This document shows, piece after piece, positions 3,247 to 30,109 of a stretch of 40,121 nt of DNA. Below the pieces are notes generated by a model that was not told the DNA's origin, ran no database searches, and saw only the letters and a program-made list of their open reading frames with translations. Positions within the stretch are counted from its first letter, which is position 1. The number at the start of each line of letters is the position of its first letter. Position numbers and translations under genes: made by a program. The DNA is from Bacteroidia bacterium (lineage in GTDB: Bacteria; Bacteroidota; Bacteroidia; UKL13-3). The stretch spans positions 1 to 40,121 of the forward strand of contig JACMQU010000033.1 of the NCBI GenBank assembly GCA_014376805.1, written 5' to 3'.

Positions 3247-4017
3247 TCAAGCTATGAAAATTTTTAGCAAGCAGTTTATACCCACACCAACCAAGATACA
3301 AATAGCATAACTCATCATGGTTCCAACCAGCACATATTCACTTCGTAAATGAGAATCTTTGTCGGCAAAACGAATGATACTTTTACCCGTTATCAAAAAA
3401 CCAATCGCTTCATATTGCCCCAATAAAACAAAAGTAAGAATGATAATGCGTTCAAATATCCCGATGATGCGCCCACCATTTTCATTGGTATTATTTTGCA
3501 CCCCATGTTCATTTTCAATTCCTTCAAGAGTGGATTTTCGAATTTTTTTAGTAGCCAGTTTTATGACCATACCTACAGGCAGAGTTACTAAAACATAGCC
3601 AAGCAATATAAGACTAAGCCTGTAATCGGTAAAAGGTAAGCGATACGCAACCTCAAGTTGCTGCCACAAATCGAAATGCCAGGCCCATGCTATGATCAAT
3701 ACCGTAATATGTAAGAGCTGATCGGCGATAAAAAGTTTCATAGCCGAAAGAAATGGATTTTGCTGCGCCTTAATCTTCAATCCATCAATGAGGTAATGGA
3801 GCAGGGCTATTAGAGCTGAACCAAACCACCAGCCAGTTATTAGGGCTGTACTCATATAAACCCCTATGATGTGAAATAGCATTGAACGCGTAAGCCAACC
3901 TTTATTCTGAACCATCTTATTTGATTGTAAAATAAAATCGCTCAACACATGAGCCAATACTAATCGTATTAAAAAACTTCCATGTTCGGGGGTAAACAGC
4001 ATAATTTGTGAGTTCAT
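3247..4017 (-). CDS. DUF3307 family integral membrane protein
   Basis: 256 residues starting at ATG 4017. The opening LVLAHVLSDFILQSNKMV is the hallmark of the DUF3307 family (a histidine- and aspartate-bearing first membrane helix), followed by several more hydrophobic segments (about 45-75, 105-125, 138-160, 195-215, 230-255) with a polar loop around residues 160-190. The biochemical role of the family is not known to me. It lies 16 bp downstream of the satD gene on the same strand, so the two are very likely co-transcribed. SatD and DUF3307 proteins are often neighbours, which suggests a functional pair of a cytosolic regulator and a membrane partner. Inner-membrane location is inferred from hydrophobicity. 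Confidence 0.8.
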   Translation of the reverse strand: MNSQIMLFTPEHGSFLIRLVLAHVLSDFILQSNKMVQNKGWLTRSMLFHIIGVYMSTALITGWWFGSALIALLHYLIDGLKIKAQQNPFLSAMKLFIADQLLHITVLIIAWAWHFDLWQQLEVAYRLPFTDYRLSLILLGYVLVTLPVGMVIKLATKKIRKSTLEGIENEHGVQNNTNENGGRIIGIFERIIILTFVLLGQYEAIGFLITGKSIIRFADKDSHLRSEYVLVGTMMSYAICILVGVGINCLLKIFIA

Positions 4018-4033: not shown

Positions 4034-4723
4034 TCATTTATTATAAATTATTTCAAAGCGTTTTACCATCCCTTCAATTGCGTTCCAACCGGCGCTATTG
4101 GATCGCTGATTTACCGCTGATTGCGCAATTTTCAATTTATGAGCAATCTCTGTTTCGGTGTAGCCCAATAGTTTTAAATTAATAACTTCACACTGTAATG
4201 CCGTAGTGCGCGATATAATATAATCAAGCAGCAAACATTCAATTGCTAGCTCATTCGAAAAGGAATCTTCTGTAGCTATCCCCATACTTTGTTTACCCTG
4301 GGTAAGCTTATCCAATAAATGCCCGGATAACAAAAACGCAGGTCCGTTTGCTGTGCCTAATTTATTAAGGCCCTTATCAACGTTACCTATACCAATACCA
4401 ATGCGTGTATCAAACATGGATACCGGCAAAGCCATCTCATTTTTTTTTGCATTCTTAGCTCTCGATCTTAGTTCGTTTGATTCTGTGGGATTGAGGCTCT
4501 TAATAAAAGTTTTTATAATTAGCGCTATACGTAAAGCATATTCAGGTGTGTGTAAAAGACATTGAAAACTATCGCCCCTGTACATTTCAACCTGCATCCC
4601 ATAGTCTTTACCCCATTGCCTTAAAGCCGCATCAACACTTGTAATAAGCATTTGCCGTTCCTTAATACACATTTTGGTTGATCGAACAATATCACCGGTT
4701 ATGACTGCCTTTTTAAATATCAT
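4034..4723 (-). CDS. SatD family protein: cyclase-like N-terminal domain plus C-terminal HTH
   Basis: The likely start is the ATG at 4723 (229 residues); a longer frame would need a TTG at 4735 that lies at the edge of the palindrome array. The N-terminal half matches the SatD family, opening with AVITGDIVRST. Motifs in order are ITGDIVRST (Asp11), YRGDSFQ (Asp51), RIGIGIG (about 107-113) and GPAFLLSG (about 127-134). By eye these parallel the order of motifs in class III nucleotidyl cyclases (two metal-binding Asp, RIGI, GPAVN). The last ~50 residues (LKLLGYTETEIAHKLKIAQS) form a sigma-region-4-like helix-turn-helix. A DNA-binding regulator with a nucleotide-sensing domain is my inference; catalytic activity is not established. 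The five-palindrome array directly upstream is a plausible target, implying autoregulation of satD and the downstream DUF3307 gene. Confidence 0.8.
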   Translation of the reverse strand: MIFKKAVITGDIVRSTKMCIKERQMLITSVDAALRQWGKDYGMQVEMYRGDSFQCLLHTPEYALRIALIIKTFIKSLNPTESNELRSRAKNAKKNEMALPVSMFDTRIGIGIGNVDKGLNKLGTANGPAFLLSGHLLDKLTQGKQSMGIATEDSFSNELAIECLLLDYIISRTTALQCEVINLKLLGYTETEIAHKLKIAQSAVNQRSNSAGWNAIEGMVKRFEIIYNK

Positions 4724-4735
4724 AATTTTATGCAA

Positions 4736-4871
4736 TATAAGGTTATAGCCTTATAATCTTCAAATATAAGGTTGTAGACTTATATTAGTCTATTATAAGG
4801 TTTAAACCTTATAATGGGTCAATATAAGGTTATAACCTTATAATCGTTAAATATAAGGTTTAAACCTTATA
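4736..4871. promoter_or_regulatory. Array of five 20-bp palindromes at exact 29-bp spacing (candidate operators)
   Basis: Palindromes occupy 4736-4755, 4765-4784, 4794-4813, 4823-4842 and 4852-4871, so starts are exactly 29 bp apart. Copies 3 and 5 are identical and perfect (TATAAGGTTTAAACCTTATA); copy 4 is perfect with TATA at the centre; copies 1 and 2 are imperfect variants. The four 9-bp spacers (4756-4764, 4785-4793, 4814-4822, 4843-4851) are mostly unrelated. The array ends 12 bp before the satD ATG. Palindromes with almost no loop suit a dimeric DNA-binding protein better than RNA hairpins. SatD carries an HTH and is the obvious candidate binder. The array does not look like CRISPR: spacers are too short and no cas genes are present. 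Confidence 0.8.
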
Positions 4872-22175: not shown

Positions 22176-22323
22176 AGTCGATTAGTCGTAAGTGGATTAG
22201 TTGTTAGTCGATTAGTCGTAAGTCGATTAGTCGTTAGTCGATTAGTCGTAAGTCGATTAGTCGTAAGTGGATTAGTCGTTAGTCGATTAGTGGGTTAGTC
22301 GTTAGTGGGTTAGTAGGTTAGTT
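22176..22323. repeat. Left tandem array, 15-bp period (AGTCGATT + AGTCGTA/T)
   Basis: About ten repeats made of alternating 8-mers (AGTCGATT, AGTGGATT, AGTGGGTT) and 7-mers (AGTCGTA, AGTCGTT). The array overlaps the last bases of the four-helix-bundle gene and supplies its stop codon. The same AGTCGTAAGT core occurs in the right array on the opposite strand, so the two arrays form inverted flanks around the gene. On the plus strand it makes a short valine/serine/arginine-rich frame that is not a gene. Confidence 0.85.
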
Positions 22324-22674
22324 ATTAGGCGAAAGAGATTTAATAAGTCCTCGTATTATTTTACTAACTTCATTACATTTATCTACCAATAACAACGTTT
22401 GCTCACTATTCAAATAGTTTAGCCTTTCTGATAAATAAAGCATTGACTTTACTTCGCTGCAAGATGCTAAAGCAATATAAAGGAACCAAACAAATTGCTT
22501 ATCACTCATCCTATCAAAGCCTTCGGCAATATTATTTGAAATCGAAACTGAAGCTCTTTGTATCTGATCCCTAAAACCAAAATCCCTTGAAATATTAAAC
22601 AATTTATAAATATCTACGGCCAAATCCTGCCCTTTTTGCCAGGCTATTATATCTTCAAATTTTTGTATTTTCAT
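22318..22674 (-). CDS. Four-helix bundle protein (23S rRNA intervening-sequence family)
   Basis: 118 residues. The opening KIQKFEDIIAWQKGQDLAVD, the SVSISNNIAEGFDR core (about 42-55) and the ELKSMLYLS-like EVKSMLYLSERLNYL helix identify the S23/IVS four-helix bundle family, first named from proteins encoded in 23S rRNA intervening sequences and structurally related to the Avd accessory protein of diversity-generating retroelements. There is no rRNA or reverse transcriptase here. The molecular role of stand-alone copies is unknown. The gene sits between inverted arrays of short tandem repeats and its stop codon is inside the left array, which suggests it moved as a cassette. Confidence 0.88.
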   Translation of the reverse strand: MKIQKFEDIIAWQKGQDLAVDIYKLFNISRDFGFRDQIQRASVSISNNIAEGFDRMSDKQFVWFLYIALASCSEVKSMLYLSERLNYLNSEQTLLLVDKCNEVSKIIRGLIKSLSPNN

Positions 22675-22682
22675 AAATTTCC

Positions 22683-22997
22683 ACTTTCTAACTTAACACT
22701 TTTTACTTTCAACTCAACTTACAACTTTTTTTACTAACGACTTACGACTCTCTAAACTTACAACTTTTTTTTACTTACGACATACAACTATCTAAACTTA
22801 CAACTTTTTTTACTAACGACTTAAGAATCACTAGACTTACAACTATCTAAACTTACAACTTTTTTTACTAACGACTTACGACTCTTTTTACTTACGACTT
22901 ACGACTCTCTAGACTTACGACTCTTTTTACTTACGACTTATGACTCTCTAGACTTACGACTCTCTAGACTTACAACTATCTATACTTACGACTATCT
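22683..22997. repeat. Right tandem array, units related to ACTTACGACTCTCTAG
   Basis: About twenty degenerate units such as ACTTACGACTCTCTAG, ACTTACAACTATCTAA and ACTTACAACTTTTTTT, in 16- and 23-base spacings, filling most of the 430-base gap between the four-helix-bundle start and the WG-repeat gene. Reverse-complemented, the core is AGTCGTAAGT, the same as in the left array. The bases 22998-23104 hold nothing else I can name beyond a possible promoter for the WG gene. Confidence 0.85.
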
Positions 22998-30083: not shown

Positions 30084-30109
30084 AATCTTTTAAATTAATT
30101 TAAAAGATT
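30084..30109 (+). terminator. Perfect 26-bp palindrome after the lipoprotein gene
   Basis: Perfectly self-complementary (arms begin AATCTTTTAAA) starting 6 bases after the stop, followed by CTTAATATTTA. Being A/T-only it is a weak terminator; a binding site is the alternative. Confidence 0.45.

Follow-up and report, generated by a model that had tools for sequence, protein, structure and literature searches.

A phase-conserved operator array in a widespread cassette of satD and a membrane-protein gene

The palindromic array before satD in the window (the whole stretch of DNA analysed, 40,121 nucleotides) belongs to a widespread two-gene cassette, composed of a regulator and a membrane protein, with a phase-conserved operator; the system is larger than the earlier note on this DNA supposed. 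In the reading that we favour, and regard as likely, the array is the operator of a self-regulating cassette of satD and the membrane-protein gene, where SatD dimers bind in series and repress the operon.

Such a reading would give two protein families of unassigned function their first testable mechanism. SatD occurs in about a fifth of the sampled Bacteroidota genomes (matches in 78 of 395, above the PF16264 cut-off in 69 of 395), and the pair is also carried on plasmids of other phyla. The more than 100 matched regulator-operator pairs form a natural set with a readable recognition code and, as site spacing is kept while site sequence is repeatedly replaced, what sets the pitch of an operator becomes testable. 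Full-text searches for SatD, DUF3307 and related ideas, which drew satellite-DNA noise and covered mainly literature outside subscription papers, listed no match that concerned the array or a SatD operator by title or abstract.

The array in the window

The array (4736..4871, no strand) comprises five 20-bp palindromes, each with a 7-bp half-site TATAAGG on either side of a 6-bp centre, at a pitch of exactly 29 bp. Unit 1 (4736..4755), the closest to satD, has one mismatched pair and unit 2 (4765..4784) has three; unit 3 (4794..4813) is a perfect palindrome whose sequence recurs in unit 5 (4852..4871), and unit 4 (4823..4842) is perfect with a different centre (no strand is assigned to any unit). 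Re-reading of the letters thus bears out what the earlier note had claimed of the five starts, of the exact period and of the grading of the copies into two identical and perfect, one perfect with another centre, and two imperfect. The note was also right that the spacers differ: the four of 9 bp, together with the 9 bp beyond the last unit, are all different. Tandem Repeats Finder describes the array as having period 29, 4.8 copies and a score of 155. Between its end and the satD ATG (4723, minus strand) lie 12 bp, as the note had stated, and a TTG at 4735 offers an alternative start in frame with satD.

Perfect 20-bp palindromes number four in the 40-kb window, three of which lie inside the array; the fourth is AT-rich and isolated (30087-30106). 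Other tandem repeats, with periods that include 15, 23, 39 and 55 bp, occupy window positions 22176-22997. CRISPR arrays consist of repeats separated by long unique spacers, with cas genes alongside. Such an identity was rejected for the present array, with its 9-bp spacers and its neighbours satD, DUF3307, a deoxynucleoside kinase and a beta-CASP nuclease, the last of which scores 407 bits against a cas14 model with a cut-off of 800.

Architecture across satD loci and restriction of the sites

Loci containing satD were picked by protein similarity alone, without regard to arrays. They were drawn from relatives of the window genome (10 of 98 genomes with a match), from a Pfam search of 395 genomes of the phylum, and from named loci in a public genome collection (the best 80 of 558 confirmed). 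Seven (L001-L005, L015 and L016) were dropped because they duplicated the window or were fragments of another locus; merging four whose SatD was identical to another then reduced 173 loci to 169 distinct satD genes, window included. Each locus was scored by its best pair of 20-bp palindromes, sought over the 250 bp before the gene and its first 30 bp, and any period from 20 to 44 was allowed.

A score of at least 30 was reached in 134 of the 169 upstream windows, and the period was 28 or 29 bp in 128 of these 134. Dinucleotide shuffles reached the same score in 346 of 6760 cases, 34 of the 346 at 28 or 29 bp, and windows inside satD in 4 of 169, none at those periods. At a score of 34 or more, the counts were 102 of 169 upstream, 16 of 6760 among shuffles and 1 of 169 inside satD. 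An earlier run on the 80 named loci, in which palindrome length was also free, gave 28 or 29 bp in 67 of the 70 loci scoring at least 30; of 233 control windows from the named loci, 3 reached 34, and the top one of these (L020) is itself a 29-bp array. The selection on phasing proposed in the earlier note is supported by this concentration of free periods.

By a strict call, arrays are present at 137 of the 169 loci, and the possibility that they are absent from all other satD loci, which the note had named as a refutation, is contradicted; 13 of the 32 loci without a strict call have weaker units by a second caller. Among the 137, the first caller counted three units in 83, four in 28, two in 18, five in 6, six in 1 and eight in 1. 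These numbers depend on the caller because the first chose a spacer-centred register in some arrays; hence the second, which used a list of allowed starting triplets and gave three units in 90 of 144 arrays. Of 129 arrays measured, 44 have a pitch of 28 bp, 69 one of 29 bp and 16 a mixed pitch. The 6-bp centres are palindromic at just 466 of 1206 positions, from which it appears that mainly the half-sites and the pitch are kept. One locus (L011) has eight units upstream of satD with near-identical spacers at exactly 28 bp, an array caught soon after its tandem expansion.

What recurs is the architecture rather than the letters. The note had expected TATAAGGTT..AACCTTATA at other satD loci; that sequence is not conserved, and we rejected the literal TATAAGG palindrome as a conserved feature, as it stands at satD in some genera only. 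Half-sites vary by clade, from the TATAAGG of the window to TATAAGC/TATAAGT, TATAACC, ATCAACC, TATCGGC, TATTAGT, TATAGGT and dozens more.

At nine loci (L039, L041, L043, L047, L052, L065, L071, L148 and L153), the array lies between satD and its partner, and no 28/29 array was called upstream of satD. The least clear is L043, whose upstream window scores 29 at 29 bp, just below the threshold. Just ahead of satD, L039, L041 and L071 show what looks by eye like the end of another open frame. A further locus, L042, scores in both places, although its downstream score of 30 may be due to chance. Since the array of the nine loci stands between the two genes, we infer that it must control the partner, which would be its required target, satD usually being part of the same transcript.

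The sites are largely restricted to satD. In the whole assembly from which the window comes (3.88 Mb, 88.5% complete), TATAAGGTTNNAACCTTATA with at most two mismatches occurs at the five array places only; at three mismatches the palindrome pattern has eight more places, and a reversed control pattern has four matches. Ten genomes with TATAAGG-type arrays were searched with TATAAGGNNNNNNCCTTATA, one mismatch being allowed. In nine, two to four matches at array spacing stand at the satD place only, and three of these genomes have one extra isolated match elsewhere; the tenth (G495) has three single matches, one at satD; the reversed control gave 0-8 matches per genome. A two-unit pattern applied to seven Bacteroidales genomes found the satD place and no other in five and had no match in the remaining two; its control had none at all. 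Taken together, each with the pattern of its own type, 14 of 17 further genomes have array-spaced repeats only at the satD place. Across 60 relatives of the window genome, matches lie at satD in four (G000, G014, G078 and G032), and isolated ones occur once each in G061, G067, G032 and G078. Within the genus (19 genomes), satD is confined to G000 and G014, and the array to the same two.

One exception was seen: at L020, satD has a single clear unit before it, and an array of some four units at 29 bp lies behind the cassette, ahead of the next gene. Arrays without satD at many unrelated loci, the other refutation that the note had named, were not encountered in the genomes searched. The L020 array begins about 1600 bp after the satD start, behind DUF3307, and is of the TATAGT..ACCTATA type; SatD may control a third gene there.

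Plasmids extend these observations beyond the phylum. Five of the six plasmid records encoding a relative were examined (L210-L214), Salinivibrio costicola being left out, and all five have a DUF3307 gene annotated beside satD. With the period left free, Vibrio lentus (three units by eye), Segatella copri and Salinivibrio proteolyticus came out at 28 bp and Enterobacter kobei at 29 bp; for each of the four, no shuffle out of 100 attained the score. No array was found with a free period in the Sphingomonas insulae copy. Four of the five plasmid copies hence bring their own array, three of them in Pseudomonadota, and from these 28/29-bp arrays it follows that a cassette with its own operator exists in at least two phyla. 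Named loci of other phyla, such as L026, L057 and L065, come from metagenome assemblies and are weaker evidence. IS transposases lie near satD-DUF3307 in two of the five plasmids, and the Sphingomonas insulae copy is situated near Pycsar, TIR and ImmA-type genes.

SatD, its partner and the operator letters

In the window, satD (4034..4723, minus strand) encodes a domain of the class III nucleotidyl-cyclase fold followed by a C-terminal helix-turn-helix. The cyclase-like domain spans residues 1-155 (4259..4723, minus) and contains the conserved Asp11 and Asp51; the recognition helix, which covaries with the operator, spans residues 201-210 (4094..4123, minus). The protein scores 28.9 bits (E 1.1e-6) against the SatD family of Pfam, PF16264, whose cut-off is 29. 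A structural model (pLDDT 90.5) has the cyclase fold and then the helix-turn-helix, and every one of the 50 Foldseek matches listed for it is a nucleotidyl cyclase (best E 1.2e-6; TM about 0.44 relative to the full query). Profile matches to 3mr7 and Ma1120, at E 0.0026-0.007, extend over the N-terminal half. The metal-binding aspartates are kept at nearly every locus (Asp11 in 168 of 169, Asp51 in 169 of 169). Positions 131 and 135, matched by eye to what we take to be the catalytic, transition-state Asn and Arg in a half that the profile alignment does not resolve, are variable among the 169. Because these positions vary and a DNA-binding domain is fused to the fold, SatD is, judged by its sequence, probably a sensor and not a cyclase.

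The operon's second gene (3247..4017, minus) encodes a DUF3307 membrane protein of 256 aa, which matches PF11750 at 57.8 bits, above the cut-off of 23, over residues 16-118, in its N-terminal half. A profile of DUF3307 proteins finds a match downstream in 147 of the 169 satD loci. In most of the remaining lineages the partner has some 100-110 residues, which correspond to the C-terminal membrane half alone; a profile built on this half finds a membrane partner downstream of satD in 160 of 169. Among the nine misses, three have fewer than 300 bases after satD and two (L065 and L148) do match DUF3307. Short partners resembling the C-terminal half were observed at L118, L120, L122, L123, L125-L132, L134-L136 and L138. 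As these short partners resemble the C-terminal membrane half, which is the commoner across lineages, the core that the pair conserves is not the Pfam DUF3307 domain. The model of the partner is all-helical (pLDDT 92.5), and comparison with the PDB gave no fold match at E ≤0.001. DUF3307 matches a phage membrane-protein family, PHROG 2470 (E 1.5e-9); tblastn of both window proteins against a phage collection found nothing, and viral contigs scanned with SatD yielded no confirmed relative. A jumbo-phage genome table (PMC8504454), in the only paper listed by the searches that names DUF3307, includes such a protein.

The divergence of half-sites among clades allows their letters to be compared with the protein that might read them. 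A canonical half-site was called in 144 of the 169 loci, by a caller that required one of 13 starting triplets and thereby restricted position -8. The covariation set of 129 comprised loci with consistent half-sites and a partner match, plus L029, L052 and L074 where qualifying. When SatD columns were ranked by mutual information with the half-site, residues 206 and 202 came out as the top two; residue 45, in the cyclase-like domain, took third place, 203 came fourth and 207 eleventh. The mean summed z is 20.9 for the region of the recognition helix (198-211) and 7.9-13.8 for other regions. All 30 helix-turn-helix columns, taken together against the rest, do not differ significantly (Mann-Whitney p 0.12), the signal being confined to the recognition helix. 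At the 119 loci where both proteins could be compared, the highest summed z is 58 for a SatD column and 30 for a column of the partner.

Individual pairings are close to rules. At residue 206, Q is paired with G at -5 in 44 of 46 loci and K with C at that base in 41 of 48, and E accompanies both G at -5 (13 of 14) and C at -7 (13 of 14). At 202, Q goes with C at -8 (24 of 25) and S or P with T (90 of 92); at 203, A goes with A at -6 (62 of 66) and S with G (22 of 29). Between proteins with 30-40% identity outside the helix-turn-helix, the operator core is common in 171 of 240 pairs equal at 202/203/206 and in 356 of 4140 unequal pairs; at 60-70% identity, the share with a common operator is independent of these residues (37 of 43 against 24 of 28).

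Shared descent was allowed for with a tree built without the helix-turn-helix columns and with path-independent pairs, on all branches of the best tree. Residue 206 against base -5 gave 14 independent pairs, 12 changing the same way and none the opposite way (sign p 0.0005); 203 against base -6 gave 15, with 10 the same way and none opposite (p 0.002). Too few pairs were available for 202 (three, of which 2.9 on average changed the same way) and for E/D at 206 against C at -7 (five, four the same way), so that significance on independent pairs is reached by 206 and 203 only. When 185 columns were tested alike against C at -5, as commonest residue versus the rest, 206 came first, 200 second and 202 third. 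Well-supported branches alone leave three pairs for 206, too few to test. The correlation of pitch (28 or 29) with residue 137 of the cyclase-like domain was not upheld: its mutual-information z is 22.9, yet on 10 independent pairs 3.6 change the same way, none the opposite way and 6.4 show no difference. As its significance is lost when phylogeny is taken into account, we retain it as a lead and no more.

The covariation of operator letters with the recognition helix, above that of the partner and of the rest of SatD, is strong evidence that SatD itself would read the array. The earlier note had proposed binding by the adjacent helix-turn-helix protein, and the covariation argues in favour of this proposal.

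Regulation, rival readings and known systems

The direction of regulation was approached through predicted promoters. In the window, TATATTTG (4761..4768, minus) matches the Bacteroidota -7 element TAnnTTTG, a consensus taken from PMC7366714, and overlaps the satD-facing edge of unit 2. Among 121 loci with upstream arrays, an exact TAnnTTTG lies within 60 bp of the ATG in 62 (shuffled mean 8.2, maximum 16 in 100 runs), a count partly helped by the operator's own TTATA letters, which contribute to the box in the first of the registers listed below but not in the last. Within 250 bp the exact box is present in 70 loci and lacking in 51. Relative to the end of the last unit, it starts at -33 (8 loci, window included), -4 (12), -2 (4), +7 (5) and +17 or +18 (18), so that six fixed registers hold 47 of the 70 boxes; the other 23 are at other offsets. 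Which part of the predicted promoter the array covers depends on the clade: -33 region, spacer, -7 box or transcript start.

An activator is expected to keep one geometry, and a repressor can act in all registers. The overlap of array and predicted core promoter takes several registers, which suits a repressor better; on this basis we infer negative autoregulation, SatD being likely to repress both satD and its membrane partner. Sites near a promoter do occur for activators too, and the SatD-bound array could instead recruit RNA polymerase to the satD-DUF3307 promoter. The 18 loci whose last unit ends 17-18 bp before the -7 box (17 of them with half-sites of the CAACC/CAACT type) speak for recruitment, since the unit there overlaps the -33 region in the manner of a class II activator site. 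In 16 other loci, however, the last unit sits on the -7 box (at -4 or -2), and in 8 it lies past the box (at -33); a unit on the box or in the predicted leader suits occlusion, not recruitment; one architecture would need to activate in every register. We therefore think activation unlikely.

Three further explanations dispense with binding by SatD or with selection on pitch. An operator beside a gene does not itself name its binder, and the sites might belong to another host regulator, with SatD merely a gene under its control. This is highly improbable given that the letters track the recognition helix of SatD above its other parts or the partner, that array-spaced repeats stand only at the satD place in 14 of the 17 further genomes (one of the others having single matches only and two no match), that in the genus the array accompanies only the two satD genomes, and that the four plasmid copies, three of them in Pseudomonadota, come with arrays of their own. 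Neutral tandem duplication, whereby the pitch is inherited from the repeated unit without selection, clearly did produce some arrays, such as the eight near-identical units, spacers included, of L011. As a general account it is very unlikely: spacers and centres have diverged in the window and in many arrays, and half-sites vary by clade, yet 28/29 bp persists across phyla, and the low palindromy of the centres suggests that it is mainly half-sites and pitch that are kept. Palindromes would also fold in RNA, and the exact -7 box of the window puts the nearest unit in the predicted leader, as an element of tandem leader hairpins controlling translation or termination would require. An RNA-level reading is nevertheless scarcely credible: in the loci whose -7 box follows the last unit by 7-18 bp, the predicted start site leaves the entire array outside the transcript, and no Rfam family matches the window.

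Under repression by SatD, residues 202, 203, 206 and probably 207 of the recognition helix would read the 7-bp half-sites, one dimer would occupy each 20-bp palindrome, and two to eight dimers, usually three, would stand in series at the 28-29 bp pitch. Bound SatD would most likely block RNA polymerase and keep the operon low. The cyclase-like domain may sense a signal, for which a metal-bound nucleotide is the obvious candidate; the signal would release SatD, and the membrane partner would then be made. In Streptococcus pyogenes, according to PMC11323703, satD is essential in the strains tested yet accessory across the population (178 of 249 genomes), which is as expected of a gene restraining a harmful neighbour, if the S. 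pyogenes neighbour is the same.

A pitch of 28-29 bp corresponds to 2.67-2.76 turns of 10.5 bp, so that each site is turned by about -120 to -86 degrees from the one before; the spiral or co-operative filament that the earlier note suggested would be compatible with such a geometry. A bolder, and at present doubtful, proposal is that SatD is a nucleotide-gated factor polymerising on DNA: cyclase-like domains would join the dimers, the filament would set the 28/29-bp pitch, and ligand would break it and release the membrane effector; the cassette would move horizontally and acquire new targets by exchanging its recognition helix and its array at the same time.

Several known systems invite comparison. 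The two window genes match Pfam families, PF16264 (at a score just short of its cut-off) and PF11750, whose titles ('SatD family' and 'Protein of unknown function') state no function. With class III adenylyl and guanylyl cyclases, among them Ma1120, a bacterial light-regulated cyclase and a bacterial cUMP synthase, SatD has in common the predicted fold and the two metal-binding aspartates; it has a fused DNA-binding domain, and probably differs in the transition-state Asn and Arg, whose positions, matched by eye, are not conserved. Pycsar is an anti-phage system of a cyclase and a membrane effector. The cassette resembles it in pairing a cyclase-fold protein with a membrane protein, and one plasmid copy lies near a Pycsar effector gene; SatD is set apart by its helix-turn-helix and operator array. 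Identity with a listed defence system, Pycsar or other, was rejected, as PADLOC models gave no match to SatD or its partner up to E 0.1. Autoregulated toxin-antitoxin operons are known with serial palindromic operators, for example that of HipB on hipBA. The likeness here, which for the partner is one of gene order alone, lies in a small DNA-binding protein that, in the case of SatD, would cover several palindromes over its own promoter, followed by a second gene; what distinguishes SatD from HipB is its cyclase-like domain and a pitch of 28-29 bp conserved across phyla.
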